This document shows positions 3,796-58,949 of a DNA stretch of 64,000 nucleotides, one piece after another. The notes under the pieces are model-generated. The model searched no databases. It saw only the letters and a program-made list of their open reading frames with translations, and was not told the DNA's origin. The translations under genes were made by a program, and so were the position numbers. The DNA is taken from NCBI GenBank assembly GCA_963920705.1, contig OY987237.1, positions 13,174,601 through 13,238,600 of the forward strand. The letters run 5' to 3'. Source of the stretch: Odiellus spinosus (Eukaryota; Arthropoda; Arachnida; Opiliones; Phalangiidae). How positions within the stretch are numbered: position 1 is the first letter of the stretch; each line of letters opens with the position of its first letter.

Positions 3796-4367
3796 TACGT
3801 CACACTTGTATTTCTTAATCGATTTGAAAAGGTACAATAAAACCAATATTCAAATCGCCAGGAATTGTTTTAAGCGTCACGTGTTCACGCTTTATCTTTA
3901 TAAATCGATTTATTATAGCTTCATCTATCGGTTGTCGAAACCGAATCGGTAAGAAACTGGTTATCGAAGCAGTTTCGAGAAATCGAATCGATTCGAGAAA
4001 AGACAGTTTCCCTTTCACACGACTCTAGCCAAGGAGGATCAGAGAAGGAGAGGAAATGTGGGGACGGCGCGGTTCCTACTGCGTCGGCCTAAACTCCCAC
4101 TCTGGGAGAACGGGGGTAGAGACGTTTCGTGGTAAAATGTTGTCGCGTGGGTAAAACGAATCCTTTATGAGACGCGCTAGCTAGCGACCACGTGACAACA
4201 GTTTACCTCGAGAATTTCCTATCCCCCTTTCCACCCGAGTGGGAGGTTGGCTCTTCTCTCTCTAACTCAACGCAGCCCCACATTTCCTCTCCTTCGCTGA
4301 TCCTCCTTGCTCTAGCGAAACCTTTTAGAAATGTTTAAATCGATTCCAATACCTAGTGTGAACGCGG
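3796..4367. mobile_element. Family F TIR element, copy 2, split by D7-E
   Basis: This copy has the same sequence as copy 1 (AATCGATTTGAAA, TCGGTTGTCGAAACCGAATCG and a terminal CCTAGTGTGAACGCGGC). It is interrupted at 4030-4309 by a D7-E element with a clean 7-bp duplication, so family F is older than that insertion. Confidence 0.6.
4030..4309. mobile_element. D7-E MITE, copy 1 (7-bp TSD CTCTAGC)
   Basis: The termini are CAAGGAGGATCAG and CTGATCCTCCTTG. The flanks CTCTAGC (4023-4029) and CTCTAGC (4310-4316) are identical. The interior carries inverted segments such as AACTCCCACTCTGGGAGAAC and the GAGTGGGAGGTTGG side. It is 280 bp long with no ORF. Confidence 0.85.
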
Positions 4368-4736
4368 CTAATTAAATTAAGCCTAATACGACAATTATGA
4401 GATGTCTAAAAGTAAGTGTAATAAATAGGGCTTATAATAGCTGGAGTATTTGTATTTTTTCTTCTATATATATATATAAATCCAAAATACAAAGAAAATA
4501 AAGTTGTTTTTTCAATAATTTTCAATATAATGTAAAAAATAATAAAAAATTAAAAACTTAAATATAACGTTTGATATAAAATAATTATAAATTAATCCAA
4601 AAACAATGGGTGTTGATTTCATCATTAAGTTGACGTTTTTATTGCTAATTAAAACGCTCAAAAGGATAAGATTTTAATCATATTTAATTAAAAAAAAATT
4701 GAGCTTGGTCAAAATTGAATTACGTTTTATTACAGG
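4368..4736. other. AT-rich spacer
   Basis: Very AT-rich sequence with a TATATATATA run near 4467. No gene, RNA or recognisable repeat is seen. Confidence 0.4.
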
Positions 4737-5342
4737 CAGAAGCCGATAAAATCTTTCTTTGAAGTCTATTAATCTGTTCCATAGAGCACTCCAATCTGCG
4801 ATGGGTAAACTTTTACTTGCTCAGAGCCTCGGAAGAGGCCTAGTTCATACTCCCTCTCTATGAAAAATTTAAATTTCTTTTCGGGGAGGGGCTTTAACAT
4901 ATATATGATGTTTATATTTCCAGCCAATCCTGTAGGTAAGAAGGGTCCCAAGCCCTAGAGTTCCCACGCGTAGCCCTTGTTTCCATACTCTCAAGGACAA
5001 ACTAACTACAGAGGATCCCACTGGTTTCAGCCCCATTAAAGGTCATATCTGCTCTACAATTTGCCCCTTTAAATTTTCATCCTTTACGCATACAGTAATG
5101 AGTTACGCGTGAGTAATGAACACTGCTTATCCAACCAACTCAGGTTCTTAGGAAAACACCTTTTGGAAAAACGTTTCGGGGGAATCAAAATGGAATGAAC
5201 TTTACTGCCCCTGGCCAAGGATCTCCACACAGAATTTTTTTTCCCTATAGGGCTACTTTTTGGGGCGAAACTTACGCAATCAGACATGGATAAATAAGGC
5301 CCCAGAATAATAGACTTCAAAGTCGGGTTTCATTGGCTTCTG
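4737..5342. mobile_element. Diverged D7-B-related element
   Basis: The ends (CAGAAGCCGATAAAATC and GGGTTTCATTGGCTTCTG) match the D7-B family. The element is about 600 bp instead of 337 and the interior has diverged, so it is an older or longer relative. No flanking duplication is clear. Confidence 0.6.
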
Positions 5343-6723
5343 ATACCAGATGAGGTAAAATACTGACTTTTTTTATAAACATTTCTAAATATTTGAGCCA
5401 CTGGTTAATTTATTTTTATAAATCACAATATTTTCAATTATTTTGGGGTGGTTTTCAACATTTAATGATAAGTATTAAGTAGATTTTGGGAAATTTAGTT
5501 CATTAGTTGATTGTTAGCAACTTTGTTAAGAAATTCAAACATTACGTGTCTATATTGTAGCTGATAGCGTTTGGTCTAAAATTTCATTATAAATAAGAAT
5601 TATTCCAATTAAACTATGTCTAAAATACGTGTACTATGAAATATTTTTCATTTATTTTACAACCCATTAGATTTTTTACTCTACAAATATGCAAATAATA
5701 ACGATTACAAATTTGGCCCAAAAATTGACTAAATTATTCAAAAATAAATGAAATTGATCCACCCCTTGTAACCAAATTTTTGGCCTAAGATTTATTATTT
5801 TTTGCGTAAAAATGGGCCAAATTTGAGAGAATTATACGTAAATTACCTAAATTCTTGAAAATGAGCTTCTAATCTAGTGGGTTAGGCCTAAAATGACCAT
5901 ATAACTGAGTTTTGGCTTAATAGTTTTTGGTTTAGGCCTAAAAATATATAAAATTGATCTATAACTAAGGTTTTTGGCATAAAAATATAACAAAATGTAA
6001 GAAATCCCCAAGAGATTAAACATAACACTAAATTAATTTAGATTTAGGCCTAATGGTTATTATTTTAGGTATAAAATAGACCAAATACCGTAAAATTTTA
6101 ACGAACTGATCCAATCCCCATGAGATTAAGATTTTTTTGGCCTAATAGGCATTAGTTTAGGCCTAAAATATACGAAATTGAACTACACACCCCTTGTAAC
6201 TGAGTTTCTTAGCATAAAAACAGACCCAAAGATCTTAGGTCTCAAAATAGTTAGTTTAGACCTAAAAATTGACCAAAATATGGTAAAACTAGATAGAATT
6301 GACCGAATTTCTTTTAGAGATAGTTTAAAATAAATAATTTTAGGCCTAAAATAGATCAAATTACTCAAAATAACAATTGATATTACCCCAATTATTTCGA
6401 TATTTTTTACCCCAAATACAATTAAAACGGTAATTTAATTAATAGACTTAAATTAAAATATGCGTAGGTGATTTAAATACGTTGTTGACCTAAAAATGTA
6501 CCTAATAACTATGGAAGCAAATTTAATTGATCCTAAGCTTGGCCATGTTTCCCTCGTTAAAATTATCAAGTCTTACGACTAAAAGAGATCTTAGAATTCT
6601 TCAGGAGCTGTTAAGATATTCTTAAGACATTAAGGGTCATTTAGTAAAATTTTGATTGTAGGTTTGGCAAATTTTTCCTCGATAAAATTATAATGATGGT
6701 AAATTATTAAATGAAAGTTAACT
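5343..6723. other. Intergenic with degenerate AGGCCTAAAATA repeats
   Basis: Between about 5750 and 6370 the motif TAGGCCTAAAATA and the phrase CCCTTGTAACTGAG recur with much decay. This suggests an old tandem or inverted repeat of roughly 120 bp. No gene is seen. Confidence 0.4.
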
Positions 6724-8998: not shown

Positions 8999-9040
8999 TA
9001 TTGATTATCCTTATCCTGTAATAATTAAGGAATTATTTGG

Positions 9041-11902: not shown

Positions 11903-14020
11903 TTAGGGTTTTAAAACGGAAGCGTCGTTTAAAACGGCGGCTAACAAGTTTTTATCCTGAAGTACAAACTGTAAATCGTCTTCATTCGTTTTTAAAATCA
12001 CTTTTGTGGAACGAGACTCTTTCGCCTTTTTCATATTAATTAATCCTCGTGATTCAACCAAATCGCATAAACTTAAAAACTCGGATGATTCAATTTCTCC
12101 AATTTGTCTTTTGCGACAAACTCTCCTGTGAATTTCGTGTAGCTGACGTAAAAAGAATCAAATTGATTAAAATTTAAACAAATAAATTAGAATTAAAATT
12201 AAATACCTAATTTCACGATAAAGGTTGAATATTAAGATAATTAATTGTATCTAACTAAATGTAATTAATAATTACCTTTCCAACGGTGATATCTTTAATT
12301 TTGCTACTTTTGGTCATTAACAAAAGGGTGCAAAGAAGTAATTTCTGTTGAATAGGCATGGTTGAATCAAAACTATCCGATTTCGAAGCTCCCGATGATA
12401 AAACTTGGGAAGTATAGATATCGTGTAAAACGGACATAATCTGCGGTAATCCGACGACTGAGGTCTTTTTGGGCGATTTCGCCGGACTTCTATCGACGTT
12501 AATGGAACTCAAATCATCTTCGATAATTCTTTTACCCAAAAGTCTTTGGGATCTAGCTCCTTTTTCAGCGATATCCAGAGCTCGTCTGCAAGTATCCAAC
12601 GCTTTCCTGATATCGCCCGTCGAAGCCGCTATCTTTCTAGCGCAGAATTGAACGGCTTCCGGTTTAAAAATGGCTGTGTTTTTATCTATAATAACGTCTT
12701 TCAAACGATCTTTTAAGATTTCTTGGATTTGCGATTGAGAATAAGGCATGAAATGAAGTAATTGAGGTTTAGTTCCGCAAGCGTGAAGTCGAGGGAGAAG
12801 ACGATCGGTTAAATCTAAAGCATTGGCTATTCCGATTAAAATTAATCGAGAATTTGGGAGACGCGGCCATTCGAAGATCGTGTAAAGAACTTCTTGATTT
12901 TTTGTACTTAATTGATCCATTTCGTCCAAAATCATGACGCTAATTACGAGAAAAATCACATCAATTAATTATAATCTAATTGATTATAAAAATTGATTAA
13001 AGACTTACACAGGATTTCCGTTGGTCGTTAATCGTTTTTCGATACATTTGGTTGCTTCTTTAATCGTTTGAGTAGCGGAACATCCTAATTCTTGTCCAAT
13101 TTTGTCATAAATAGACTTACTTTGTCTCATAGTCATGCAATTTACAAAAATGTTTACGAACATTTCTAATTTCTATATAAAAAAAGATTTTATTTATTTT
13201 TTTAAAATTTTAAAATCAATAAATTTTAAACTTACCTCGTGTGATTCGATAAATTGTTGAAGGCAAGCGGTTTTACCAGTACCAGGAGCTCCCGAAATAT
13301 ATAAACAACCCGGGGTTTTCGTTTTTAAATGATGGTTTAAGAATTTATCAAGTTTTGTTAGCTCGTTCTCTCGACAAAGAATTCGAGAAGGAGTCGATGT
13401 ATGTAAAGCTTGTTTGGCTTTTTGATACGGAGTAACTGTGTCCAAAATAATCTTGATTATTATAATTACTCACGTTAATAATAAATTTTAATAACTTACC
13501 ATCTTGTCTGGATAGAGTTACGACTCCAGTTGTTGGACTAGAAAGATTTGAAGTAGGTGTATTTTCATCATCACCGAAACAAAGACGTCGAACTCGTTTA
13601 GGAGGTGATGGAATCGAAATATTTACTGTAATTAGGTCGTAATTAACACCGAGTTGATACTAATTAATTAGTTATAATTAACTTACCTAGGGGATTACAA
13701 TTAACACGTTTAGGAGTTAATGGAGATCTCGGTGTCTTTGGGCTAGTCTCAATTTGATTGTCAATTTGATTTAATTTCACCGGGGTTACGTTTGGATTTT
13801 TTCTTTCGGGCGAAGGGGTTATATTTTCCGAGTCTTTACTACTAATCTTGGCTTTCGATTTGGTTTTCTTGGTCCCACTCTTAGTTTTTATGGGACTAGC
13901 TTTTAGTTTAGCCCTACCCGAATTTTCGTCATTATTACCGTCACTTTTTAGGGAATATTTCTTAATCTGCGAGCGTGTTTTACGGACGGGAAAGTCGATA
14001 GTACTTTGAACTAAATCCAT
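11903..14020 (-). CDS. Cdc6: CDC6 replication licensing factor (AAA+ ATPase), 6 exons, 575 aa
   Basis: CDC6 works with ORC and Cdt1 at origins in the nucleus to load the MCM2-7 helicase. The minus-strand exons are 13687-14020, 13500-13625, 13236-13435, 13009-13172, 12276-12939 and 11903-12142. All introns are GT..AG (61-133 bp), phases agree, and the CDS is 1728 nt. Human CDC6 is 560 aa. Residues 1-150 are a basic, disordered tail with CDK consensus sites (SPIK, SPER, TPKR, SPPK) and a cyclin-binding Cy motif, RRLCF (124-128), at the place of human RRLVF. Walker A is GAPGTGKT (202-209), Walker B VMILDEMD (276-283), sensor 1 N314 in LIGIAN, and sensor 2 R386 in GDIRKALD. The C-terminal winged helix includes VCRKRQIGEIESSEF and LVESRGLINMKKAK. 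Two more CDK sites (SPAK, SPKK) precede it. All catalytic residues are present, so the gene looks functional. Confidence 0.96.
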
Positions 14021-17532: not shown

Positions 17533-20500
17533 TTATCCGGCTCCAGCAGCAGCAATTATAGCCAACAGTATAACTGGTCCAACAGCGTCGATGGTACACT
17601 AGAATTAAATAAATAAATAAATAGACTCTATTTTTAATATTCCCAAACATGAAAATAATTATATTTGGAAGTATTTTTGTCCCCAAAAACATTACTTAGA
17701 ACTAAATTTGGTCTATTTTGGATCTTAAATATGAAATTGTTAATTGTTAGAGTCAGGAGAATGACCTCACAAAAATAAATCCATCCCCCTGCTCTAAATC
17801 ATAAATTTCTAGCTACTTGCCTAACTACCATATTCTCGTCCTTAAATCTCTATATCTGCCCTATTTTCATCCTCAAACAACAAAATCTGACCTTTTTTGA
17901 CCCTCAAACAACAAAAGCTGACCTATTTTCATCCTCAAACAACAAAATCTGCCCTATTTTCATCTTCAAACAACAAAATCTGCCCTATTTTCATCCTCAA
18001 ACAACAAAATCTGCCCTATCTTCATCTTTAAACAACAAAAGCTGCCATATTTTCATCCTCAAACAACAAAATCTGCCCTATTTTCATCCTCAAACAACAA
18101 AATCTGCCCTATTTTCATCTTTAAACAACTAAATTTGCCCTATTTTCATCTTCAAACAACAAAATCTGCCCTATTTTCATCCTCAAACCACAAAATCTGC
18201 CCTATCTTCATCTTTAAACAACAAAAGCTGCCCTATCTTCATCTTTAAACAACAAAAGCTGCCCTATTTTCATCCTCAAACAACAAAATCTGCCCTATTT
18301 TCATCCTTAAACAACAAAATCTACCTTATTTTCATCCTCAAACAACTAAATCTGCCCTATTTTCATCCTCAAACAATAAAAATTTGGCCTATTTTCATCC
18401 TCAATCAACAAAATCTGCCTTATTTTCAGTCTCAAACAACTAAATCTGCCCTATTTTTATCCTCAAAGAACAAAATCTGACCTAATTTCGTCCCAAATTG
18501 CCAAAAATTGGTCTACTTTACCACCGAAACAACGTTATAATTAACGTTTCATCCCAGATTATTATATAACAAAACTAAATTTTAAAAACTATTAATTTTT
18601 ATTGTTTAGTTATACGTTGTCAGAGGGAGGAAATTTCTTAATTATTATTGGACGGTTTTAAGTCAACTAGAATTAATTTCCGACGTGAAAGCGACTTCCT
18701 TCCGGTTATGTGTAATCAATCATTGAGGTCGGATTAGGCGGGGGGAGGGTCCCTGGAACAAAATTATGGTTTGAATGATGGCTATATTTTAATCTGGATC
18801 ATTTAGAATCTATCGAACCGCAACTCTTAAGTATTTTCTATTTTTATCGAGAAATAAATAATTCATATCAGAAGCCGATGAAACCCTCCTTTGAAGTCTA
18901 CTACTCTAATGTTCCATATAGCGCTCCTCTCTGTATGGGTAAAATTCACAATTTTACGAGATCGGAGGGGTCTTACTTCATACCCCCCTGTCTTCGGAAA
19001 AGTGGAAATTTTCTCTCTCCACAAACGACGACGTTTTATTGACGAACTCCAAGGCTGCTACCTGCTAGAGATATTCGCTCCGAAAATATCTACCGTTAGA
19101 AGGCGTACGAATCGCGCATTTTGAAACTAACCCATACAGAGAGGGGTAGACAAGACCCGCGAGTAATAGACTTCAAAGGAGGGTTTCATCGGCTTCTGTT
19201 CATATTTTTTCTTCTCATCCAAATTCAATCGGATAAATAACCACTCGGAATAGTCAATGCGTACGAAGCTAGATTGCCTCGTAAAACTCGGATATTGCTT
19301 TAGCGTAGTGTTGTTAATTTTCCGTGAAATTGTAAAAGAGTTTATTCCATGGCAATACGTACCCTTCTAAGATTGCAGGGTGACCACTTTTCCTATATTT
19401 CCTATTTTTTTCCTATATTTTCACCTCTTTCCTATTTTCTCCTATAATTTAATAGCAATTCCTATAATCTCCTATATTTCTACTCAAAATCTCTAGTTAA
19501 GGGTCAAGTTATAAATCATACTGTCAGCTCAAAACTGTAGTGCCCTTTTGATAACTCATTAAGCTCTCGTGTCTGCGATTTTCCATACCTTTTTCTGGTC
19601 ATGAAACTAAAATCCTAATTACGCTTAGGCAATCAATTAAAAGTTGCGAAGTTGGTAACGCACTAGCGTGTTGATGGCGGAGAGCGAAGTTCGATTCCCC
19701 GTACAACCTTTTTATTTTTTTTATTTTAGTGTTAATTACTAAATTATGTCATGTTGAAACATTTGAAATAATAGATGCGTAAATAATAATGCAAATAGGT
19801 GTATTACCTATAAAAGCGTGTACAACGAATATGGGTATAATCTTGCCCAAATGAAACAAATATTCGCTTGTTGTCCCACTTAATAATATGGTACTTAATA
19901 GAAATCACAATCCGCTTTAGATGTAAAAATTATAAGCCGAATGATAAAGGAAGATGGAAACAGAGCTTCAGTCCTACCTTAAAATATAGTAAAAAATACT
20001 TTGTCAACAATTAAAAAATAATAAAAATCATAATTTAAGGTGCTAAGTGGTGTCCCACTTTTTCATGGGACAAATGAAAAGGGCGCAAATGAAACGGGTG
20101 ACAAATGAAACGGGTGACAAATGAAAAGGATGACGAATGAAACGGGTGACAAATGAAACGGGTGACAAATGAAACGGGTGACAAATGAAACGGGTGACAA
20201 ATGAAAAGGGTGACAAATGAAACGGGTGACGAATGAAACGGGTGTCAAATGAAACGGGTGACGAATGAAACGGGTGACAAATGAAACGGGTGGCAAATGA
20301 AAAGGGTGACAAATGAAACGGGTGACGAATGAAACGGGTGTCAAATGAAACGGGTGACAAATGAAACGGGTGACGAATGAAACGGGTGTCAAATGAAACG
20401 GGTGACAAATGAAACGGGTGACGAATGAAACGGGTGTCAAATGAAACGGGTGACAAATGAAACGGGTGACGAATGAAACGGGTGTCAAATGAAACGGGTG

Positions 20501-23500
20501 ACGAATGAAACGGGTGACGAATGAAACGGGTGTCAAATGAAACGGGTGACAAATGAAACGAGTGACGAATGAAACGGGTGTCAAATGAAACGGGTGACGA
20601 ATGAAACGGGTGACGAATGAAACGGGTGTCAAATGAAACGGGTGACAAATGAAACGGGTGACGAATGAAACGGGTGTCAAATGAAACGGGTGACAAATGA
20701 AAAGGGCGACAAATGAAACGGGTGACAAATGAAACGGGTGACAAATGAAAAGGATGACGAACGAAACGGGTGTCAAATGAAACGGGTGACAAATGAAACG
20801 GGTGACAAATGAAACGCGTGACAAATGAATCGTGTGACAAATGAAACGGGTGACAAATGAAAATATTATATTAATTATTAAACTATAGTAAAAAATACAT
20901 AGTCAAGAGATGAGACAGAATTTAAGGTACTAACAAGATGGTCAAGCCCATGATAGCTACACCCCTGACAGGAGGTGACAAATGAAAAGTGGTGCGACAA
21001 ATGAAAAGTAATGGCAGGGGTGTAGCTAACATGCGCTTGACCACCTTGTTAGCAGGTGCTAACAAGATGGTCAGACCCATAGATAGCTACACCCCTGACA
21101 GGAGGTGACAAATGAAACGGACGACAAATGAAACGGGTGACAAATGAAACCGGCAACAAATGAGACGGTTGACAAATGAAACCGGCAACAAATTCTTCCT
21201 ATATTTTCCTATATTTCGCAAAGAAATTTCCTATATAGGATTTTCAAATTTTCAGTGGTCACCCTGAGATTGTAACCGCGAGTTAAGAACAGAAATCAAT
21301 AAGATGAAGATTGGAATTGCATGATAAATTAACTCACAACGACCATGTCTTGAATGCAAAGTTGTTGTTCCATACTCATGGTCTACAAAAAGCCATATCA
21401 TTAATTTCAATATCAATAAATAATCAAATGAATCAATAATACCACGAGTCTATTCAGACGAGGCGTAATTAGCCGGTTTAATTAGATTTAACCGAGGTTT
21501 ATTGAACTGAGAAAGCTACGTAAACCTCGGTTAAATCTAATTAAACCAGCTAATTGCGCTAGCTCGTCTGAAGAGGGTATTAGGGTGTACCAAAAATTGA
21601 AGGTTATCTTTGATATATAAATATTAAATTATTCGTATCAATGATAATGAGGACGTAATGCCCAAATTTGAATCTTCTATATCAATATGTTTTCTTTATA
21701 TGATAATTTAAAGGGAGAATGCAACCTAAGAAGTGATTTTTTTTATCGATTCCTTATGCTTTAAATAGGCCCAATCCGACATTAACAAAATTAACGAACA
21801 AATATTAAAATAGAAATAAATTTAAAACTTACCCGGAAAATTGGCTTAGCGAGATTCATGGAGATCCTGATTTCCTCGCGCGTGAGATCTAGCGACCAAT
21901 CGAAAGCGTGAACGACGGGCCTTTGTTCATTGGTAGCTAGACCTTACACGGAAGCAATTCAGGATCTCCATGAATCCCGCTAAGCCTTTTTTCCTGGTAC
22001 GTTTTAAATTTATTTCTAGTTTATTTGTTTTGTAAACTTTTTATTAGCGGATTAGGCCTATTTAATCACTTGTTATTAAGTTGAATTTTCCTTTTAAAAG
22101 CTTTCCTATGACATTTTCGAAAGAAAATTGATATGTTAAAGGCCTAGGATTACTTGTGCCTGTCACCCTGGAAACAAACTCACCCTCCAGGCTTTTTCTA
22201 GCCTCGCTACTCAAGGGGAAGCTCAGAAGATGAGCCCACTTCCAGTGAAACAGGCGTGGGATAAGCGGAAGAAATCCTAGGCCTTTAAAATCTTTTCCAT
22301 ATCATTTAAGATTGAAATATCTCGAAAATTTACATCTATCCAAAATCCTTAACTTCTTTGATGCCTATTTGGTTCAACCAGAAGTAGATGAAACCCTCAT
22401 TTGAAGTCTACTACTCTAATATTCCATATAGCGCTCCTCTCTGTATGGGTAAAATTCACAATTTTACGAGATCGGAGGGGTCCTACTTCAAACCCCTTGT
22501 CTACGGAAAATTGGAATTTCTCTCTCTCCACAAACGACGACGTTTTTTTGACGAACTCCAAGGCTGCTAGAGATATTCGCTCGACGAACTCCCGCTCCGA
22601 AAATATCTACCATTAGGAGGCGTACGAATCACGATTTTTGAAACTAACCCATACAGAGAGGGGTAGACAAGACCAGGGAGTAATAGACTTCAAAGGAGGG
22701 TTTCATCAGCTTCTGGTATTTGGTTATCCATTTAATATGTAGATATCCTTCCCTAGCTTTCGTATTGACAAATCACAATCGTCGCATTTGATCCTTCAAT
22801 TTTGACACACCGCGATAAGATTAAAGCTTTAATAATATATAAATATTAATACCGAATTAGCTTGGGATGGTTCGGCGCCTTTCAAACAAGGAGTCATTTC
22901 CATCATGCACTGCGCGGCGCGTTAAACAAATCATTTAATTACGCTAATTAGATCTTATAAGATTTAAGCAGAGGACAACGCGAGCTGTTGCTAATATGTT
23001 ACGCCGGCAGCTCGCGTTTTCCGTGTAATACAAGCTGTATCAACTCTGCCCTAGACCATAAATGACTGGAGATGGAGCCGAAAAATGAGACATTATTCAT
23101 TTTTAAGGGATAATGAAGTCGATAAAGCTCATATTAAGATCATAGAACAAGCCGCGCAGGGATCCCAGCCGTCAAAAACCTGAATGTTTCTCGTAAGCAG
23201 ACCTTATTAGCTTAGTTTTGTATAAATTGCTTGTCACAATTAGAGCTGAAACAAGCTTACAAAGTGGGTGGGAGCTCAATCAAATTCTAAACGGTTCACG
23301 CGAGTTCAATAACTAAAATTCAACGTGGCTATCGTGTTTGTGAGCAAGTAGTTCCCGTATATAACTGTAAAATAAAATTTATTATATATTTTAAAAGGTA
23401 TTTTTGCTGAAATTTGCCTCGCAAAATCCTAGCCCCCTTCATAAGGCGCGGCAAAAGTTTATAAGGAATTTTAATTTATGGCTGGGCTCCCTGAATTTAG

Positions 23501-40004: not shown

Positions 40005-40445
40005 ACTATAGTTTAGGTCACATCACGCTAACGTATATCCCAATTGATTTTAATCTATAAAATGAAACCGATACATTTAAATCCCTCGGAGTCGCTTTAA
40101 ACTCGCCATCTGTTGAGGTATCATCTTCATAAATCGATTTATTATAGTTTCATCTTTAGATTGTTGAAGCAGAATCGATTTGAAATTAGTTTTCGAAGCA
40201 GTTTCGAGAAACAATTATAGTTTACAAAGAAACCCAGAATTATAATTTAATTTTGAACATTAAAATCTAATTTAAATATAGGTATTAGTAAATTACAAAA
40301 TGAGGATCTTAAAAATAAAATTTAAGTTCAGTTTCAATATCCATTTAAAGATAATATTTCCTAATTTAATGTACTCTAAATTTTATGGCGGAAGACGACA
40401 TTGCGAACTAGAAATCTTTATCCGAGTGTGAACAATGCCCAATTA
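40005..40445. mobile_element. Family F copy, degraded
   Basis: CGTTCACACTATAGTTTAGG at the left, CAATTGATTTTAATC, GGATTGTTGAAG-like core, and a possible right end CCGAGTGTGAAC at about 40422. The interior after 40215 has diverged. Confidence 0.5.
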
Positions 40446-40509
40446 GAAACAACGTGAACCGGGCACACGCCCACCTTAAAAGCGTGGGTTAAATAAATAC
40501 AGAAAAGGG

Positions 40510-41145
40510 TTAAAGGGAAACTTCGAGTCAAAAATAGAACAGCTTTTGAATTTATTTTCGGAATCACCGTGTTAATCACTGGTGTTTAAATTAATTTCAG
40601 AAGTTTGGTAAAATTCGAAAAAAAAAAAAAGTAAATATAAATTCGGGCCAATCATATTATTTCAGTTTCAACAGCGCTTGTAATGTCCTAACGTTAAAAG
40701 AATAGGCCGGCGTTTGACGCCTAAAACCTTGGTCATCAAACGCCGGCATATACTTTTAATGTTAGGGCCTTAAAAGCTTGTAAAGCAACTTCCAGGGGCT
40801 ACGGCCATTGGGGTACAAATATAATGATGAATTATCACAGTAGATGGCGCGCTTGCGCCTTACTCTATCTCTCGCTCTCGTACCTATCCACTTATTACAC
40901 CCGTTGCAATGGGAAACGCGTTGAGTCTCGAAGCGCGAGGTGACGGGTTACCGCCTAGTTTGTCTCTCTTCAAAGCTTAGCCAATCAGAATAGGATCAGA
41001 ATGGGAACTACGATAGCGACATCTCTTAACAGATCGGCGCGTAAAGAGTGTACTCCAATGGTTCGCTGCCCCTGCAAGTTCCTCTTCAATTTCGAATTCG
41101 TTTATTCAAAAGCTGTTTCATTTCTAGCTCAAATTTTCCCTTTAA
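40510..41145. mobile_element. T4-L MITE, full copy
   Basis: TTAA at both ends. The left end AAGGGAAACTTCGAGTC..AACAGCTTTTGAATT mirrors the right end ATTCAAAAGCTG..TCTAGCTC..TTTTCCCTT. The inner hairpin AGGCCGGCGTTTGACGCC / ATCAAACGCCGGC is present, and a GC-richer cargo lies between 40800 and 41050. Confidence 0.75.
40836..40852 (+). promoter_or_regulatory. CTCF-like core motif inside T4-L
   Basis: CACAGTAGATGGCGCGC contains the AGATGGCGC core found in animal CTCF sites. It sits within the transposon interior. A match by motif only. Confidence 0.3.
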
Positions 41146-41519
41146 CAAATTATATATCAAATGTAAGGAATGAAATCTCGCGGAAATAGTTTTTTTGTGA
41201 TTTTTGCCGAGTTCCCGAAGATCAATCCCTTTTATTGTACCGGGGTTGGAAAAACAAACAGCTGGATTTAACGGGATCCTTTAAAAGTCACCTACACTGA
41301 AACCAAGTTCTGAAACTAAAAGCCCAATAAAAGAGTTGTTGACACGTTACGAACGAGAGAGACACGTTTTTCAGATTGAATAAAATAAAAAAACAAAAAT
41401 ACGAAAAATAGTGGGAGCAAAAATGCCAATATATTTTTGGATAAATAATAAGTAATATTGAAATTGAGAAATCACCACTCTTTAAGGGAACGTGTGTCGC
41501 TTAACTTTAGTGATAGATT
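41146..41519. other. Spacer
   Basis: No gene or repeat recognised. Confidence 0.4.
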
Positions 41520-43725
41520 TAGATATATAGCACTTTTGTCGTATTGAACATATGTCGTAAATTTGATGACCTGTCGTAAATATGATTATCTGTCGTTAAA
41601 TTTGATGATAAAGACGATCTGTCGTAAATTTGATGATAAAGACGATCTGTCGTAAATTTGATGATAAAGACGATCTGTCGTAAATTTGATGATAAAGACG
41701 ATCTGTCGTAAATTTGATGATAAAGACGATCTGTCGTAAATTTGATGATCGTTAAATTTGATATCTGTCGTTATATTTGATGATCTGTCGTTAAATTTGA
41801 TATCTGTCGTTATATTTGATGATCTGTCGTCAAATTTGATATCTGTCGTTATATTTGATGATCTGTCGTTAAATTTGATATCTGTCGTTAAATTTGAGGA
41901 TCTGTCGTTAAATTTGATATCTGTCGTTATATTTGATGATCTGTCGTTAAATTTGATATCTGTCGTTATATTTGATGATCTGTCGTTAAATTTGATATCT
42001 GTCGTTATATTTGATGATCTGTCGTTAAATTTGATATCTGTCGTTATATTTGATGATCTGTCGTTAAATTTGATATCTGTCGTTATATTTGATGATCTGT
42101 CGTTAAATTTGATATCTGTCGTTATATTTGATGATCTGTCGTCAAATTTGATATCTGTCGTTATATTTGATGATCTGTCGTTAAATTTGATATCTGTCGT
42201 TATATTTGATCTGTCGTCAAATTTGATATCTGTCGTTAAATTTGATGATCTGTCGTTAAATTTGATATCTGTCGTTATATTTGATGATCTGTCGTTAAAT
42301 TTGATATCTGTCGTTATATTTGATGATCTGTCGTTAAATTTGATATCTGTCGTTATATTTGATGATCTGTCGTTAAATTTGATATCTGTCGTTATATTTG
42401 ATATCTGTCGTTATATTTGATGATCTGTCGTTAAATTTGATATCTGTCGTTATATTTGATGATCTGTCGTCAAATTTGATATCTGTCGTTATATTTGATG
42501 ATCTGTCGTTAAATTTGATATCTGTCGATATATTTGATGATCTGTCGTTAAATTTGATATCTGTCGTTATATTTGATGATCTGTCGTTAAATTTGATATC
42601 TGTCGTTATATTTGATGATCTGTCGTTAAATTTGATGATCTGCCGTCAAATTTGATATCTGTCGTTATATTTGATATCTGTCGTTATATTTGATGATCTG
42701 TCGTTAAATTTGATGATATGTCGTTAAATTTGATGATCTGTCGTTAAATTTGATATCTGTCGTTATATTTGATGATCTGTCGTCAAATTTGATATCTGTC
42801 GTTATATTTGATGATCCGTCGTTAAATTTGATCTGTCGTTATATTTGATGATCTGTCGTTAAATTTGATATCTGTCGTTATATTTGATGATCTGTCGTTA
42901 AATTTGATATCTGTCGTTATATTTGATGATCTGTCGTCAAATTTGATATCTGTCGTTATATTTGATAATCTGTCGTTAAATTTGATATCTGTCGTTATAT
43001 TTGAAGATCTGTCGTTAAATTTGATATCTGTCGTTATATTTGATGATCTGTCGTTAAATTTGATATCTGTCGTTATATTTGATGATCTGTCGTTAAATTT
43101 GATATCTGTCGTTATATTTGATGATCTGTCGTTAAATTTGATATCTGTCGTTATATTTGATGATCTGTCGTCAAATTTGATATCTGTCGTTATATTTGAT
43201 AATCTGTCGTTAAATTTGATATCTGTCGTTATATTTGAAGATCTGTCGTTAAATTTGATATCTGTCGTTATATTTGATGATCTGTCGTCAAATTTGATAT
43301 CTGTCGTTATATTTGATGATCTGTCGTTAAATTTGATATCTGTCGTTATATTTGATGATCTGTCGTTAAATTTGATATCTGTCGTTATATTTGATGATCT
43401 GTCGTCAAATTTGATATCTGTCGTTATATTTGATAATCCGTCGTTAAATTTGATATAGTCTGTCGTTATATTTGATGATCTGTCGTCAAATTTGATATCT
43501 GTCGTTATATTTGATGATCTGTCGTTAAATTTGATATCTGTCGTTAAATTTGATGATCTGAGGTTATATTTGATGATCTGTCGTTAAAATTGATGATCTG
43601 TCGTCAAATTTGATATCTGTCGTTATATTTGATGATCTGTCGTCAAATTTGATGATCTGTCGTTAAATTTGATGATCTGTCGTTATATTTGATGATCTGT
43701 CGTTAAATTTGATGATCTGTCTAAT
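41520..43725. repeat. 39-bp minisatellite (20 + 19 bp dimer), with a 28-bp sub-array
   Basis: The dimer is TGTCGTTATATTTGATGATC plus TGTCGTTAAATTTGATATC. The left flank (41590-41745) has about five copies of a 28-bp form with GATAAAGACGATC. The length of 39 bp is divisible by three, so 13-residue periodic open frames of up to 220 codons appear; they are not genes. Confidence 0.95.
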
Positions 43726-43931
43726 ATCTTACAATTCTACTTTTTTAAATTCGTAAAGCGTGAACGGGGATTTATTGAAGCCAAGTCTATAAGTTACCCG
43801 ATATTCAATCTTCCACGAAATATAATCAAAATAATATTATTGGAAAAACTTTTCTTCCGGATGTCTCGAGTTCGCCTTCTATAGCAATGATATCTAATTG
43901 AAATACACAATTTTACGGAAGGCGAAATTTC

Positions 43932-44166
43932 TTAAAGTGAGAATGCAACCTAACAACAAGTGATTTTTTTATCGATTCCTTATCGTTTAAATAGGCCTAA
44001 TCCATCAGTGAAAAAAATTACGAACAAATATTAAACTAGAAATAAATTCAAAATTACCCGGAAAAATAGGCTTAGCTGGATTCATGGATTTTTAAATTTA
44101 CAGGTGGATTGTAGGCTTATTTAAACGATAAAAAACACTTGTTATTATGTTGCATTCTCCCTTTAA
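43932..44166. mobile_element. T4-A MITE, internally deleted copy
   Basis: TTAA, AGTGAGAATGCAACCTAAC at the left; TTGCATTCTCCCT, TTAA at the right. The inner inverted pair is lost, leaving 235 bp. Confidence 0.75.
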
Positions 44167-46599: not shown

Positions 46600-46770
46600 C
46601 ACACGGGATTCGGGCCATTCAGGCTATTCGGGCGATTCAGCTAATTCGGCTATTTTCGGCTAATTCGAGCGATTCGGGCATTTCGGGTGATTCGGGCATT
46701 TCGGGCGATTCGAGCGTTTCGGGCGATTCGGGCATTTTGGGCGATTCAGGCGATTCGGCCGTCCGACTTA
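46600..46770. repeat. 9-bp degenerate repeat GATTCGGGC
   Basis: GATTCGGGC, CATTTCGGGC and GATTCAGGC alternate, leading into the 18-bp satellite. Confidence 0.8.
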
Positions 46771-49700
46771 ACGTTTGGGTCCGACTTTTCGTTTTGGGTC
46801 CGACTTTTCATTTGGGGCCGACTTTTCGTTTTGGGTCCGACCTTTTGTTTTGGGTCCGACTTAACGTTTGGGTCCGACTTTTTGTTTCGGGCAATTGGGG
46901 CAATTCGGGCAATTCGAGCAATTCGGCTAATTCGGCACATTCGTTTGGGTCCGACTTTTCGTTTGGGTCCGACTTTTCGTTTTGGGTCCGACTTTTCGTT
47001 TTGGGGCCGACTTTTCATTTGCGTTCGACTTTTCATTTGCGTCCGACTCTTCATTTGCGTCCGACTCTTCATTTGCGTCCGACTCTTCATTTGCGTCCGA
47101 CTCTTCATTTGCGTCCGACTCTTCATTTGCGTCCGACTCTTCATTTGCGTCCGACTCTTCATTTGCGTCCGACTCTTCATTTGCGTCCGACTCTTCATTT
47201 GCGTCCGACTCTTCATTTGCGTCCGACTCTTCATTTGCGTCCGACTCTTCATTTGCGTCCGACTCTTCATTTGCGTCCGACTCTTCATTTGCGTCCGACT
47301 CTTCATTTGCGTCCGACTCTTCATTTGCGTCCGACTCTTCATTTGCGTCCGACTCTTCATTTGCGTCCGACTCTTCATTTGCGTCCGACTCTTCATTTGC
47401 GTCCGACTCTTCATTTGCGTCCGACTCTTCATTTGCGTCCGACTCTTCATTTGCGTCCGACTCTTCATTTGCGTCCGACTCTTCATTTGCGTCCGACTCT
47501 TCATTTGCGTCCGACTCTTCATTTGCGTCCGACTCTTCATTTGCGTCCGACTCTTCATTTGCGTCCGACTCTTCATTTGCGTCCGACTCTTCATTTGCGT
47601 CCGACTCTTCATTTGCGTCCGACTCTTCATTTGCGTCCGACTCTTCATTTGCGTCCGACTCTTCATTTGCGTCCGACTCTTCATTTGCGTCCGACTCTTC
47701 ATTTGCGTCCGACTCTTCATTTGCGTCCGACTCTTCATTTGCGTCCGACTCTTCATTTGCGTCCGACTCTTCATTTTATTTTGGGTCCGACTTTTCGTTT
47801 TGGGTCCGACTTTCCGTTTTGGGTCCGACTTCTCGTTTTGGGTCCGACTCTTCATTTGCGTCCGACTCTTCATTTGCGTCCGACTCTTCATTTGCGTCCG
47901 ACTCTTCATTTGCGTCCGACTCTTCATTTGCGTCCGACTCTTCATTTGCGTCCGACTCTTCATTTGCGTCCGACTCTTCATTTGCGTCCGACTCTTCATT
48001 TGCGTCCGACTCTTCATTTGCGTCCGACTCTTCATTTGCGTCCGACTCTTCATTTGCGTCCGACTCTTCATTTGCGTCCGACTCTTCATTTGCGTCCGAC
48101 TCTTCATTTGCGTCCGACTCTTCATTTGCGTCCGACTCTTCATTTGCGTCCGACTCTTCATTTGCGTCCGACTCTTCATTTGCGTCCGACTCTTCATTTG
48201 CGTCCGACTCTTCATTTGCGTCCGACTCTTCATTTGCGTCCGACTCTTCATTTGCGTCCGACTCTTCATTTGCGTCCGACTCTTCATTTGCGTCCGACTC
48301 TTCATTTGCGTCCGACTCTTCATTTGCGTCCGACTCTTCATTTGCGTCCGACTCTTCATTTGCGTCCGACTCTTCATTTGCGTCCGACTCTTCATTTGCG
48401 TCCGACTCTTCATTTGCGTCCGACTCTTCATTTGCGTCCGACTCTTCATTTGCGTCCGACTCTTCATTTGCGTCCGACTCTTCATTTGCGTCCGACTCTT
48501 CATTTGCGTCCGACTCTTCATTTGCGTCCGACTCTTCATTTGCGTCCGACTCTTCATTTGCGTCCGACTCTTCATTTGCGTCCGACTCTTCATTTGCGTC
48601 CGACTCTTCATTTTATTTTGGGTCCGACTTTTCGTTTTGGGTCCGACTTTCCGTTTTGGGTCCGACTTCTCGTTTTGGGTCCGACTCTTCATTTGCGTCC
48701 GACTCTTCATTTGCGTCCGACTCTTCATTTGCGTCCGACTCTTCATTTGCGTCCGACTCTTCATTTGCGTCCGACTCTTCATTTGCGTCCGACTCTTCAT
48801 TTGCGTCCGACTCTTCATTTGCGTCCGACTCTTCATTTGCGTCCGACTCTTCATTTGCGTCCGACTCTTCATTTGCGTCCGACTCTTCATTTGCGTCCGA
48901 CTCTTCATTTGCGTCCGACTCTTCATTTGCGTCCGACTCTTCATTTGCGTCCGACTCTTCATTTGCGTCCGACTCTTCATTTGCGTCCGACTCTTCATTT
49001 GCGTCCGACTCTTCATTTGCGTCCGACTCTTCATTTGCGTCCGACTCTTCATTTGCGTCCGACTCTTCATTTGCGTCCGACTCTTCATTTGCGTCCGACT
49101 CTTCATTTGCGTCCGACTCTTCATTTGCGTCCGACTCTTCATTTGCGTCCGACTCTTCATTTGCGTCCGACTCTTCATTTGCGTCCGACTCTTCATTTGC
49201 GTCCGACTCTTCATTTGCGTCCGACTCTTCATTTGCGTCCGACTCTTCATTTGCGTCCGACTCTTCATTTGCGTCCGACTCTTCATTTGCGTCCGACTCT
49301 TCATTTGCGTCCGACTCTTCATTTGCGTCCGACTCTTCATTTGCGTCCGACTCTTCATTTTATTTTGGGTCCGACTTTTCGTTTTGGGTCCGACTTTCCG
49401 TTTTGGGTCCGACTTCTCGTTTTGGGTCCGACTCTTCATTTGCGTCCGACTCTTCATTTGCGTCCGACTCTTCATTTGCGTCCGACTCTTCATTTGCGTC
49501 CGACTCTTCATTTGCGTCCGACTCTTCATTTGCGTCCGACTCTTCATTTGCGTCCGACTCTTCATTTGCGTCCGACTCTTCATTTGCGTCCGACTCTTCA
49601 TTTGCGTCCGACTCTTCATTTGCGTCCGACTCTTCATTTGCGTCCGACTCTTCATTTGCGTCCGACTCTTCATTTGCGTCCGACTCTTCATTTGCGTCCG

Positions 49701-52338
49701 ACTCTTCATTTGCGTCCGACTCTTCATTTGCGTCCGACTCTTCATTTGCGTCCGACTCTTCATTTGCGTCCGACTCTTCATTTGCGTCCGACTCTTCATT
49801 TGCGTCCGACTCTTCATTTGCGTCCGACTCTTCATTTGCGTCCGACTCTTCATTTGCGTCCGACTCTTCATTTGCGTCCGACTCTTCATTTGCGTCCGAC
49901 TCTTCATTTGCGTCCGACTCTTCATTTGCGTCCGACTCTTCATTTGCGTCCGACTCTTCATTTGCGTCCGACTCTTCATTTGCGTCCGACTCTTCATTTG
50001 CGTCCGACTCTTCATTTGCGTCCGACTCTTCATTTGCGTCCGACTCTTCATTTGCGTCCGACTCTTCATTTGCGTCCGACTCTTCATTTGCGTCCGACTC
50101 TTCATTTGCGTCCGACTCTTCATTTGCGTCCGACTCTTCATTTGCGTCCGACTCTTCATTTGCGTCCGACTCTTCATTTGCGTCCGACTCTTCATTTGCG
50201 TCCGACTCTTCATTTGCGTCCGACTCTTCATTTGCGTCCGACTCTTCATTTGCGTCCGACTCTTCATTTGCGTCCGACTCTTCATTTGCGTCCGACTCTT
50301 CATTTGCGTCCGACTCTTCATTTGCGTCCGACTCTTCATTTGCGTCCGACTCTTCATTTGCGTCCGACTCTTCATTTTATTTTGGGTCCGACTTTTCGTT
50401 TTGGGTCCGACTTCTCGTTTTGGGTCCGACTCTTCATTTGCGTCCGACTCTTCATTTGCGTCCGACTCTTCATTTGCGTCCGACTCTTCATTTGCGTCCG
50501 ACTCTTCATTTGCGTCCGACTCTTCATTTGCGTCCGACTCTTCATTTGCGTCCGACTCTTCATTTGCGTCCGACTCTTCATTTGCGTCCGACTCTTCATT
50601 TGCGTCCGACTCTTCATTTGCGTCCGACTCTTCATTTGCGTCCGACTCTTCATTTGCGTCCGACTCTTCATTTGCGTCCGACTCTTCATTTGCGTCCGAC
50701 TCTTCATTTGCGTCCGACTCTTCATTTGCGTCCGACTCTTCATTTGCGTCCGACTCTTCATTTGCGTCCGACTCTTCATTTGCGTCCGACTCTTCATTTG
50801 CGTCCGACTCTTCATTTGCGTCCGACTCTTCATTTGCGTCCGACTCTTCATTTGCGTCCGACTCTTCATTTGCGTCCGACTCTTCATTTGCGTCCGACTC
50901 TTCATTTGCGTCCGACTCTTCATTTGCGTCCGACTCTTCATTTGCGTCCGACTCTTCATTTGCGTCCGACTCTTCATTTGCGTCCGACTCTTCATTTGCG
51001 TCCGACTCTTCATTTGCGTCCGACTCTTCATTTGCGTCCGACTCTTCATTTGCGTCCGACTCTTCATTTGCGTCCGACTCTTCATTTGCGTCCGACTCTT
51101 CATTTGCGTCCGACTCTTCATTTGCGTCCGACTCTTCATTTGCGTCCGACTCTTCATTTGCGTCCGACTCTTCATTTTATTTTGGGTCCGACTTTTCGTT
51201 TGGGTCCGACTTTTCATTTTGGGTCCGACTTTTCGTTTAGGTCCGACTTAACGTTTGGGTCCGACTTACCTTTGGGTCCTACTTTTCGTTTTGGGTCCGA
51301 CTTTCCGTTTTGGGTCCGACTTCTCGTTTTGGGTCCGACGTTTTATTTTGGGTCCGACTTAACGTTTGGGTCCGACTTTCCTTTGGGTCCTACTATTCGT
51401 TTTAGGTCCGACTTTCCGTTTTGGGTCCGACTTCTCGTTTTGGGTCCGACCTATTATTTTGGGTCCGACTTTACGTTTGGGTCCGACTTCTCGTTTTGGG
51501 TCCGACCTTTTATTTTGGGTCCGACTTTTCGTTTGGGCCCGACTTTTCATTTTGGGTCCGACTTTTCGTTTAGGTCCGACTTAACGTTTGGGTCCGACTT
51601 ACCTTTGGGTCCTACTTTTCGTTTTGGGTCCGACTTTCCGTTTTGGGTCCGACTTCTCGTTTTGGGTCCGACCTTTTATTTTGGGTCCGACTTTTCGTTT
51701 GGGTCCGACTTAACGTTTGGGTCCGACTTTCCTTTGGGTCCTACTATTCGTTTTGGGTCCGACTTAACGTTTGGGTCCTACTTTTCGTTTTGTGTCCGAC
51801 TTTCCGTTTTGGGTCCGACTTCTCGTTTTGGGTCCGACCTTTTATTTTGTGTCCGACTTTTCGTTTTGGGTCCGACTTAACGTTTGGGTCCGACTTTTCG
51901 TTTGGGTCCGACTTAACGTTTCGGTCCGACTTTCCTTTGGGTCCTACTTTTCGTTTTGGGTCCGACTTAACGTTTCGGTCCGACTTTCCTTTGGGTCCTA
52001 CTTTTCGTTTTGGGTCCGACTTTCCGTTTTGGGTCCGACTTCTCGTTTTGGGTCCGACTCTTCATTTGCGTCCGACTCTTCATTTGCGTCCGACTCTTCA
52101 TTTGCGTCCGACTCTTCATTTGCGTCCGACTCTTCATTTGCGTCCGACTCTTCATTTGCGTCCGACTCTTCATTTGCGTCCGACTCTTCATTTGCGTCCG
52201 ACTCTTCATTTGCGTCCGACTCTTCATTTGCGTCCGACTCTTCATTTGCGTCCGACTCTTCATTTGCGTCCGACTCTTCATTTGCGTCCGACTCTTCATT
52301 TGCGTCCGACTCTTCATTTGCGTCCGACTCTTCATTTG
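46771..52338. repeat. 18-bp satellite with higher-order blocks
   Basis: The main unit GCGTCCGACTCTTCATTT is repeated with almost no variation. Blocks are separated by a constant spacer of about 80 bp made of variant units (GGGTCCGACTTTTCGTTTT and relatives). Spacer starts near 47771, 48608, 49355, 50372 and 51172 give intervals of 837, 747, 1017 and 800 bp. The outer parts (46771-47030 and 51180-52040) consist only of the mixed 19-20-bp variants, and a last short 18-bp block ends at 52338. Open frames of over 1,600 codons exist in several frames because 18 is a multiple of three; I do not call them genes. Confidence 0.97.
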
Positions 52339-52344
52339 CTAAAA

Positions 52345-52480
52345 ACGTACTCCATATCCGTTTTTATCCAAAAATGGCAACTTATCTCAGAATATTATCC
52401 GCGTTATACGTTCGAATAAGAAAATTCGTAGTTTATTTTCCTGAAAAATAATTAATAAAAAGATGATTTAAAATCTCACG
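52345..52480 (+). repeat. Partial extra copy of the arm sequence
   Basis: CCATATCCGTTTTTATCC, ATTATCCGCGTTATACG and AAGATGATTTAAAATCTC match the left arm in the same orientation, directly after the satellite. Confidence 0.75.
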
Positions 52481-53246: not shown

Positions 53247-53269
53247 ATTCGTATATTTTCAAATATTTT

Positions 53270-54070
53270 ATTTTCGGAAAAATTGTTTTGTAACTAAAAA
53301 ATGAAATTTGTATATTCGTATAATTGTTAAATGTATAAGCAGAAATAGATGAACCGAAATTATCAACGAGAGCTTAGATTGGGAAATGCATTTTATTTGG
53401 AGTGAATGGGGAGGGTAAGCACTAGGGGAATGGGCTTCCTCGGCCTCAATGAAATACCGAGGAGGATCTTGGGAAACTGATCGCCCAACGTAGCGACGGC
53501 TGCAAACCAAGCCAGGTGGCGCATTCAACGTTTCTCGGCTAGGCGAAATTCCGCGGGGGAGGGGGCTACAACTGTCGTCTAAGAGAGGGGAAACGGAGAA
53601 CTTGCCTGTGGCGTTAGAGGAATAGCTCGTTGATAATTTCGGTTCATCTATTTCTGGTATAAGGTTTACCCGAAGATAAACATTTGGCGCTTTATCTACG
53701 AACAAATTATTCGTTTTCAAACGTATGACGATGGATAAGAAAATTCACGTTTCCAGAATTAGTCTAAAATATAAGAAAAATATTTCAAATTGACTTTTAA
53801 TTCGAAGAATATAAATAAAACAACGAAACTAAGATTTTAAATCATCTTTTTATTCATTATTTTTCACGAAAATAAATTTTGAATTCAATTTTTATCCGAA
53901 CGTATAACGCGGATAATAATCTAAGATAAGGTCATGTTTAGATAAAAACGAATATGGATTATGATTTTTACATTATCTTCGAATAAGTTAACTCGAATGA
54001 AAATTAGTCTATTTTTAATCAAACAGATAATATATAACAGAATTTAGTAGATTTTATCCAATTAATAAAT
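53270..54070 (-). repeat. Right arm of the large inverted repeat (with nested D7-S)
   Basis: Reverse copy of 44786-45185: ATGAAATTTGTATATTCG, AACAAATTATTCG, AACTAAGATTTTAAATC, CGTATAACGCGGATAAT and AGTAGATTTTATCCAATTAA. It is longer because a D7-S element is inserted at 53340-53656. Confidence 0.8.
53340..53656. mobile_element. D7-S MITE (7-bp TSD GTATAAG)
   Basis: 317 bp with ends CAGAAATAGATGAACCG and CGGTTCATCTATTTCTG. GTATAAG lies at 53333-53339 and 53657-53663. The interior is GC-richer (CGGCCTCAATGAAATACCG). Confidence 0.9.
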
Positions 54071-55785: not shown

Positions 55786-56076
55786 CAAGAAGGATCAGAC
55801 AAGGAGAGGAAAAGTAGGGCTACGTTGAGTTAGAGAGAGAAGAGCCAACCTCCCACTCGGGTGGAAAGGGGGATAGGAAATTCTCGAGGTAAACTGTTGT
55901 CACGTGGTCACTAGCGTCGTCGGCTACTACGAAGCTGATAAAGGATCCGTTTTACCCACGTGACAACATTTTACCACGAAACATCTCTACCCCCGTTTTC
56001 CCAGAGTGGGAGTTTAGGCCGACGCGGTAGGAACTGCGCCGTCCCCACTTTTCCTCTCCTTGTCTGATCCTTCTTT
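55786..56076. mobile_element. D7-E MITE, copy 3, inverted
   Basis: CAAGAAGGATCAGACAAGG at the left and TCTGATCCTTCTT at the right with the last base changed. The flanks GTAATAT and ATAATAT differ by one base. Confidence 0.8.
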
Positions 56077-56896: not shown

Positions 56897-57327
56897 GCGT
56901 TTCTTATAGAGTAGGAGCGTCTTGCTTTTGTTATCTTATATGATCTCGCCTGTTCTATTTGCTCCTGGTAACACTATAGGCAAAAAATATTAATATAAAA
57001 GACAGGGTTAACAATTGTTACCATGGAAGCAAACAAGCTTAATACCCAGGCAACCAGGATATTTTTAAGGCTATAAGGCTCCGGTATTGAGATAATAATA
57101 AGGTTTCTATCGAATCTATAGCGTGTCATAATAATCGGCTTGAAAACATTTTCTAAAGATAGAAAGTTCTCCTTTATTGAGGTTTAGAATTCATTTTTTG
57201 GTATAAACTTCGCTTTCAACTTTATTTAGCAACGTGTGCGATTCGTGGGCTTAACGTTTAACTAACTAGGCTTAGTTATTACCCGCCAGATTAAAAAACG
57301 AATTTTTATTATATTAATTAGTATAGT
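56897..57327. other. Spacer
   Basis: Nothing recognised. Confidence 0.4.
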
Positions 57328-57664
57328 CAGAAGCCGATGAAACCCTCCTTTGAAGTCTACTACTCCAATGTTCCATATAGCGCTCCTCTCTGTATGGGTA
57401 AAATTCCCAATTTTACGAGATCGGAGGGGTCCTACTTCATCCCCCCTGTCTACGGAAAATTGGAAATTCTCTCTCTCCACAAACGACGACGTTTTTTGGA
57501 CGAACTCCGAGGCTGCTAGAGATATTCGCTCGACGAGCTCCCGCTCCGAAAATATCTACCGTTAGGAAGCGTACGAATCGCGCCTTTTGAGAATAACCCA
57601 TACAGAGAGGGGTAGACAAGACCCTGGAGTAATAGACTTCAAAGGAGGGTTTCATCGGCTTCTG
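57328..57664. mobile_element. D7-B MITE (7-bp TSD GTATAGT)
   Basis: 337 bp with GTATAGT at 57321-57327 and 57665-57671. Less than 500 bp from another D7-B copy in the same orientation. Confidence 0.92.
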
Positions 57665-57674
57665 GTATAGTTAA

Positions 57675-58949
57675 ACAGTTGAAGGGAAAGGAGCTAAAAT
57701 TGGAACAGCTTTTGGAATCACCGGATGCCAAAAAACTTTGACCCCCTAGGTTTTAAAAATTTGATTTGTTCGTTTTTATTTGAAAAAGATTCAAATTAAT
57801 TACCATTTTGGTCATTTTGCCTGAGCAAACCTACGTCAATTAGCATTACTCTGGTAATTATCACGTTAAATTACCAGGATAAATTACTGATTTCTAACTC
57901 TAGTCACGAGAGATTGATAGGAATGAGTTTTTCTTTCGCGCGAATTGAAAATTGAACTTGATTCGAAATACAAATATGGTTTGGGAGCTTTATATACGGT
58001 TCCCATTTTCTGTGGTCGCGTTTTGAGGCTTAGAAGATCGGAAGAGAATCGGAAGAGGAGAGAGTCGACGAAAAATTAAAGAGAGGGTAAAACAGAAAAT
58101 AAATATGGTCAGTCCTTTTAAATCTGAACGCTTCTATTTCTGAACGACGATTTCACGTGTTATATGCCAAAGCAATTAACGCTTACTTTTTAAAATCGTC
58201 AATAACTTCGCAAATACTGGCTAGCGCTCTAATTCCACCTTTCCCTCGGTAAATTCGGCCAAGGAATCTATTGGTGACACCAGAGGTATATAATAACCCC
58301 CTTCGGGGGGAAGTATGAAAGCCCCTATACTACCAATGCTAAAAATCACGAACAACAAGAGCCCGCTGCTGACTATCTAGGCCACTAGCTCGCGCTGGAC
58401 TTCTCAATGTCGCTGCTCTAGTAAAGGGTCTTTGTATAAACAAGACGGCTCGATTTGTGTTTAGAACTTCCTGTCTCAGGAGTCAGGCTGTCTGTTAAAT
58501 TGGAGTCGAAGGTTGACTTCAGCTCGCGAGTTCCGGAAGTGTGCGTAGGGAAAATTTAGTGAGGTTCAAAATGGTGTAACTATTTTTTGGGAGTAAAGCG
58601 GTGTGTCGATCCGCCGCGATTTACGCCGGGCACTCGTTGTTCGTCGATTTTACCTACCTTTCATACTTCCCCCCGAAGGGGGTTATTATATACCTCTGGT
58701 GACACTCATTTCTCGATTCGGAGTGGTTCCTTTTGCAAATTTGGGATTTTATTTTTTCATAGGTTATTAGGACAGTGAGGTTTAATAACTACGTCATCAC
58801 TATGGTCGTGTAGTTTTTATAGAGCCTACAGTTGATTCTCGCGCGGTCTTTTTTGTAAAAGTACTTACGTAATTGTGTCTAAAAATTGCTTGAAAAAATG
58901 CTTTCCATTCAAAAGCTGTTCCATTTTTAGCTCCAAGTTTTCATTTTAA
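57675..58949. mobile_element. Long T4-L-like element with nested D7-N
   Basis: The left end AGGGAAAGGAGCTAAAATTG..AACAGCTTTTGG mirrors the right end CAAAAGCTGTTCC..TTTTAGCTCC..CATTTTAA. The interior near 58200-58740 is shared with 17340-17450 and with T4-Q-like sequence. D7-N is inserted at 58281-58698. Confidence 0.6.
58281..58698. mobile_element. D7-N MITE (7-bp TSD GTGACAC)
   Basis: 418 bp with ends CAGAGGTATATAATAACCCC and GGGGTTATTATATACCTCTG. GTGACAC lies at 58274-58280 and 58699-58705. Each TIR itself contains a CCCCCTTCGGGGGG hairpin. Confidence 0.9.

Follow-up and report, generated by a model that had tools for sequence, protein, structure and literature searches.

Five families of gene-less inverted-repeat elements, D7-B, D7-E, D7-D, D7-N and D7-S, share CA..TG ends and 7-bp target-site duplications in a 64,000-nucleotide stretch of the Odiellus spinosus genome (positions 13,174,601–13,238,600 of contig 15, OY987237.1; hereafter the window; the whole genome comprises 443 Mb in 286 contigs). 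We regard them as non-autonomous miniature inverted-repeat transposable elements (MITEs) that belong to the P superfamily and to its 7-bp type, known from 1360 and Galileo, with a probability of roughly 0.78. The main reason for this placement is that seven of the eight P elements whose ends could be resolved in the same genome make 7-bp duplications as well. All five families likely derive from one superfamily, and the D7 elements most likely depend for their movement on a transposase superfamily that is already known and do not represent a new kind of element.

Target-Site Duplications

A preliminary description of the window had listed ten exact 7-bp duplications at CA..TG elements of the five families, and all ten are correct. 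Each duplication abuts CA on the left and TG on the right exactly, and in all ten copies CA..TG belongs to the terminal inverted repeats, a trait shared with P elements but not exclusive to them. Five copies belong to D7-B, one of 330 bp at 18869–19198 (TTCATAT) and four of 337 bp at 23733–24069 (ATTAGAA), 28372–28708 (GCCTTGT), 36532–36868 (TTACTAC) and 57328–57664 (GTATAGT). D7-E is represented at 4030–4309 (280 bp, CTCTAGC) and 30681–30956 (276 bp, GTATGAT), D7-D at 29564–29863 (300 bp, ATTTAAG), D7-S at 53340–53656 (317 bp, GTATAAG) and D7-N at 58281–58698 (418 bp, GTGACAC); no strand is assigned to any element. Three copies can be added to that list: a D7-E at 55786–56076 (291 bp) with T as its last base and an imperfect duplication, GTAATAT/ATAATAT, that differs at one position, a D7-B at 22379–22715 (337 bp) and a divergent B-like copy at 4737–5342 (606 bp; L001:2208–2813), the latter two without a matching duplication. 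A seed-based scan of the window for inverted repeats with flanking duplications recovers nine of the ten named elements, missing D7-D, and also yields many low-complexity or nested artefacts.

Pre-insertion sites were sought by joining the flanks of each element with one 7-mer and aligning the product to the window. Where three insertions had been credited with empty sites inside other repeats, this alignment gives five, each with a single 7-mer: for the D7-E at 4030 (empty site 35041–35174), the D7-B copies at 23733 (8917–8763) and 28372 (37611–37532), the D7-D at 29564 (31128–31281 and 33527–33670) and the D7-N at 58281 (17450–17359). The empty sites of the D7-B at 28372 (GCCTTTT) and of the D7-N (GTGGCAC) come from partial alignments and are one base off the respective duplications. 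For D7-S, an empty site was not found within the window.

In all, 47 distinct copies were compiled from the window, from eight E loci that gave the best matches and from 30 N loci (the first on contig 1), with B, D and S copies as by-catch; young copies are favored, and D and S are few, because of this choice of loci. Among these copies, which by construction had to carry CA at both ends, 38 show an exact 7-bp duplication, five differ at one position and four at two or more. By family, the exact cases amount to 9 of 14 for B, 10 of 11 for E, 15 of 18 for N, and two of two for both D and S. An 8-bp duplication was seen in none of the 47 copies, comparison of the 8-mers always giving at least three mismatches. 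An exact 7-mer at fixed ends is expected by chance in about 1 in 16,000 cases (4^-7), and somewhat more often in AT-rich DNA. The duplications are real and consistent. A tabulation of flank lengths over all genomic copies had been proposed as a check; in the sample of 47, 7 bp prevails and 8 bp does not occur.

At one locus (L043:1178–1917), a D7-D copy lies beside a D7-N copy, and GTACTAA is present on both outer flanks of the pair as well as at their junction, an arrangement that would arise if either copy had landed precisely at its neighbor's duplication.

The families are abundant in the genome. Counting the first 18–20 bp with up to two mismatches, D arms occur 2,973 and 2,957 times (forward and reverse) versus 0 and 1 for the reversed pattern, N arms 2,385 and 2,358 times versus 10 and 10, and S arms 366 and 354 times versus 7 and 6, while 1,964 first-look candidates were recorded for E.

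Target-Site Palindrome

The 38 sites with exact duplications, analyzed with both strands pooled, share the palindrome T-N-N-[GTNNNAC]-N-N-A centered on the duplication. Within the 7-mer, position 2 is T and position 6 is A in 79%, and position 1 is G and position 7 is C in 41%; three bases outside the duplication, T (A on the opposite side) is found in 68%. Positions 2 and 6 are complementary in 26 of the 38 sites, compared with a fraction of 0.27 in random 21-mers of the window (binomial p 1.2e-7), and the outer pair is complementary in 19 of 38 (p 0.002). This motif closely resembles those published for two Drosophila members of the P superfamily. For 1360, the target is reported as GTTNAAC, with a 7-bp duplication in 274 of 279 sites (PMC3276498), and the description of Galileo gives GTANTAC, a 15-bp palindrome and mostly 7-bp duplications, with some copies at 8 bp (PMC4168063).

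P Elements in the Same Genome

At least 150 matches to the P-transposase model PF21787 occur in the genome, 150 of 386 first-look candidates having been scored. Among six P frames compared with Pfam, the RNase H domain was detected in all six, the GTP-binding insertion in five and the THAP domain in two; for the two frames submitted to structural comparison (L015 and L019), the solved Drosophila P transposase is the only structural relative.

Flanks were read at 17 P loci, and both ends were resolved at eight of them, each bearing a transposase. Seven make 7-bp duplications: L019 (5,670 bp; ends CATAGACTAAG; GTCTGTC), L028 (4,609 bp; ends CATCGACAAAC; GTTAAAC), L037 (3,777 bp; ends CGGTGCCTCCG; TTTGAAG), L024 (4,581 bp; ends CGTTGCCTACG; GTTTATA), L032 (4,140 bp; ends CACTACCTCC; ATCCGAC), L035 (5,343 bp; ends CATGGAAAAATAAGC; CCCTGCT) and L027 (5,725 bp; ends CATGGACTCTAAATC; ACTACAC). 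The eighth, L015 (5,207 bp; ends CATAGATAAAATAAC), is flanked by the 8-bp duplication CGCCAACC. The ends differ among the eight families, six of the eight elements start with CA, and their inverted repeats measure 28–52 bp. L027 is nested in a D7-B copy, the region C17:8098388–8104458 (L076, L027 and L101) holding the P element with its 7-bp duplication inside that copy. At the remaining nine loci read (L025, L010, L018, L031, L033, L036, L034, L013 and L102) no ends were resolved; L025 belongs to the same family as the resolved L027. L102 (C16:6739900–6745900) surrounds a P match at C16:6742736 with a 929-amino-acid open frame, and neither inverted repeats with a duplication nor a D7 end was found in its 6 kb; it may be a lone gene that lacks element ends.

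Contig 1 carries about 30 of the 150 P-transposase matches in its stretch at about 3.13–10.06 Mb. In the same interval, exact N arms are absent among the first 100 places listed, and D and S arms are present.

Under the P-superfamily reading, the D7 elements, which carry no transposase gene, would be cut at their CA..TG ends by P transposases whose genes lie at other loci of the genome. For insertion, a palindromic T-N-N-[G-T-N-N-N-A-C]-N-N-A site would be cut with a stagger of 7 bp, and gap repair would then leave the 7-bp duplication.

Terminal Sequences and the Search for a Parent Element

Comparison of the ends points to a possible common source for B and S: 10 of the 14 bases after CA agree (p 0.002, uncorrected for the roughly ten family pairs compared). 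The agreement is 7 of 14 bases for B/N (p 0.06) and likewise for N/S (p 0.13), and no other pair of different D7 families stands out in this comparison. The preliminary description had taken the consistent 7 bp as a sign of one transposase source. A single transposase is doubtful, because most D7 families have unrelated ends and because the eight P families differ in their ends yet mostly share the 7-bp length. Several P transposases are therefore more likely than one, although B and S may share theirs.

The search for a full-length element combining D7 ends with a transposase, which had also been proposed, was carried out in limited form, at the 17 P loci and with arm patterns for S, E, B and N, and gave no positive. 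The patterns, which ran from an exact arm into new sequence and accepted about half of the possible next bases, returned one match for S, 33 for E, 161 for B (100 of them listed) and 44 for N, none of which survived reading as a parent. Arm matches were compared with the P list by script for B and E (120 of the 150 P rows) and by eye for S and N. Only three B arms, all on contig 8, stood at a likely distance and in a likely direction from P matches. Shuffling gave an expectation of 0.46 such neighbors, with three or more in 0.85% of shuffles, a test of position and not of cause that used 120 of the 150 P rows, 100 of the 161 B matches and partly guessed contig sizes (18.5 Mb for contig 8 versus the actual 20.4 Mb). 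These arms, about 5.3–5.4 kb from the P matches, were rejected as parents: all three have the same flank and a B MITE interior, and the trio represents a single old B copy that came along when P-bearing segments were duplicated.

Three other candidates were dismissed. The sequence CATAGGTATAAAATAAC at L010, considered as a D7-N end beside a P transposase, has a flank that recurs at L011, and 8.8 kb of sequence yielded no right end. The 40 bp of B end upstream of the P transposase at L076/L027 are explained by the P element with its own ends inside the B copy described above. An E arm at C2:24358294, 7.7 kb from the P match of L014, faces away from it.

Since the search for a parent with shared ends gave no positive, we infer the link between D7 elements and P transposases, both that P transposases would move these elements and which of them would do so. 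Membership in the P superfamily is read from three traits, namely the 7-bp duplication, the CA..TG ends and the palindromic target, and not from the defining mark, an end shared with a P-transposase-bearing element.

Weighing the Assignment against Alternative Sources

Several observations weigh against the assignment to P. The partial searches just described turned up no D7-ended copy that bears a transposase, and D7 ends set against the eight P ends in 48 comparisons gave nothing notable (best p 0.04). Of the P elements with 7-bp duplications, two out of seven begin with CG instead of CA, and the proportion of seven in eight comes from a part of the P loci, because nine of the 17 gave no ends. 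The transposase profile search was confined to the P model PF21787. Zebrafish P elements are reported with 8-bp duplications (PMC7776569), and published lengths within the superfamily include 8 bp for P alongside the 7 bp of 1360 and Galileo. The MITEs of P elements described in Anopheles gambiae are gene-less like D7 and are mobilized by P transposases, but they make 8-bp duplications and have ends in common with their parent P elements (PMC1562414). Finally, a GT..AC palindrome is not specific to P, because hobo, a hAT element with 8-bp duplications, has the target GTNCGNAC (PMC3276498).

The last point leads to the chief rival, in which the D7 families are MITEs of a hAT lineage whose duplications measure 7 bp and not 8 bp. 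Ends of the form CAG..CTG are frequent among hAT elements too. Besides this and the target palindrome shared with hobo, an example command in a Repbase paper extracts hAT families annotated "7-bp TSD" (target-site duplication), and such families may therefore exist (PMC4455052). Against these similarities stand the 8-bp duplications of hobo in 1,196 of 1,198 reported sites (PMC3276498), the lack of any 8-bp case among the 47 D7 copies and the 7-bp duplications of seven of the eight P elements resolved in this very genome, and we consider a hAT origin unlikely. Still less probable is one undescribed transposase superfamily moving all five families. The constancy of 7 bp and CA..TG across the five, the similarity of B and S ends and the use of one 7-mer, in identical register, by the D and N copies of L043 would suit it, whereas the ends are unrelated except for B and S, and a known superfamily, represented in this genome by at least 150 matches, shows this 7-bp habit too. 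An undescribed group, as once suggested, is not needed. A Dada-like source had been suggested as well, and the published 6–7-bp duplications of Dada elements agree with it in length. As that account describes them, Dada elements have no terminal inverted repeats and insert at specific positions within small RNA genes (PMC3706591), and for this reason they do not fit the D7 elements, with their long inverted repeats and varied, unrelated insertion sites (a variety judged from the 38 sites themselves); this origin appears extremely improbable. Of the sources put forward for the 7-bp duplications, a P-like one is best supported, by the resolved P elements and by the published 7 bp of 1360 and Galileo, and several families of 7-bp P-superfamily MITEs are the most parsimonious account; no parent element with shared ends was found in the partial searches.

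If the D7 families are P-superfamily MITEs, they are abundant ones in a genome with at least 150 P-transposase matches, and this genome would be suited to asking why duplications measure 7 bp in some members of a single transposase superfamily and 8 bp in others. It is conceivable, though we hold it only tentatively, that duplication length follows the P-transposase lineage, 7 bp being the common state of P transposases over a broad range, together with their MITEs, and 8 bp a trait of the lineage near Drosophila P. The solved Drosophila P transposase is matched better by the 8-bp L015 (E 1.2e-29) than by L019 (E 5.4e-19), the single 7-bp element so compared; these values come from frames of different length and do not amount to a tree. 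Annotators would also be warned against filing 7-bp CA..TG MITEs as hAT or unknown.

Other Features of the Window

The seed-based scan also pointed to a family with CAGGGTGACCACT ends and 6-bp duplications and to another, AGGGAGAATGCAACC, with TTAA flanks. Ends of the former kind, 17 bp long, occur at 19376–21266 and 30978–33832 with the duplications AGATTG and TGTAGG, and the interiors contain long tandem-repeat reading frames. Inverted copies of AGGGAGAATGCAACCTAA adjoin TTAA at 443–815, 38438–44162 and 43936–44162 and possibly represent a TTAA-target family. At 46687–52451, a long tandem array of a short unit contains open frames of up to 1,632 amino acids on both strands, which are probably not genes. 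A 234-amino-acid open frame lies on the reverse strand at 12255–12959, and we presume that it resembles part of a CDC6/ORC-type AAA+ protein.

Comparison with Known Systems

Among described transposons, 1360 (hoppel) combines a 7-bp duplication with a palindromic GT..AC target in the way D7 does (PMC3276498); the D7 copies differ in being found gene-less and in another genome, and the two are likened by published traits, not by sequence. Galileo, likewise mostly 7 bp with a GTANTAC palindrome, is distinguished by very long inverted repeats, some 8-bp copies and a flanking motif reported as AAN-GT..AC-NTT, compared with T-N-N outside the duplication in D7 (PMC4168063). The genome itself offers a further comparison in its seven P elements with 7-bp duplications (L019, L024, L027, L028, L032, L035 and L037), five of which have CA ends and whose inverted repeats span about 34–52 bp; they share the duplication length of the D7 families and differ from all of them in their ends and in carrying transposase frames.

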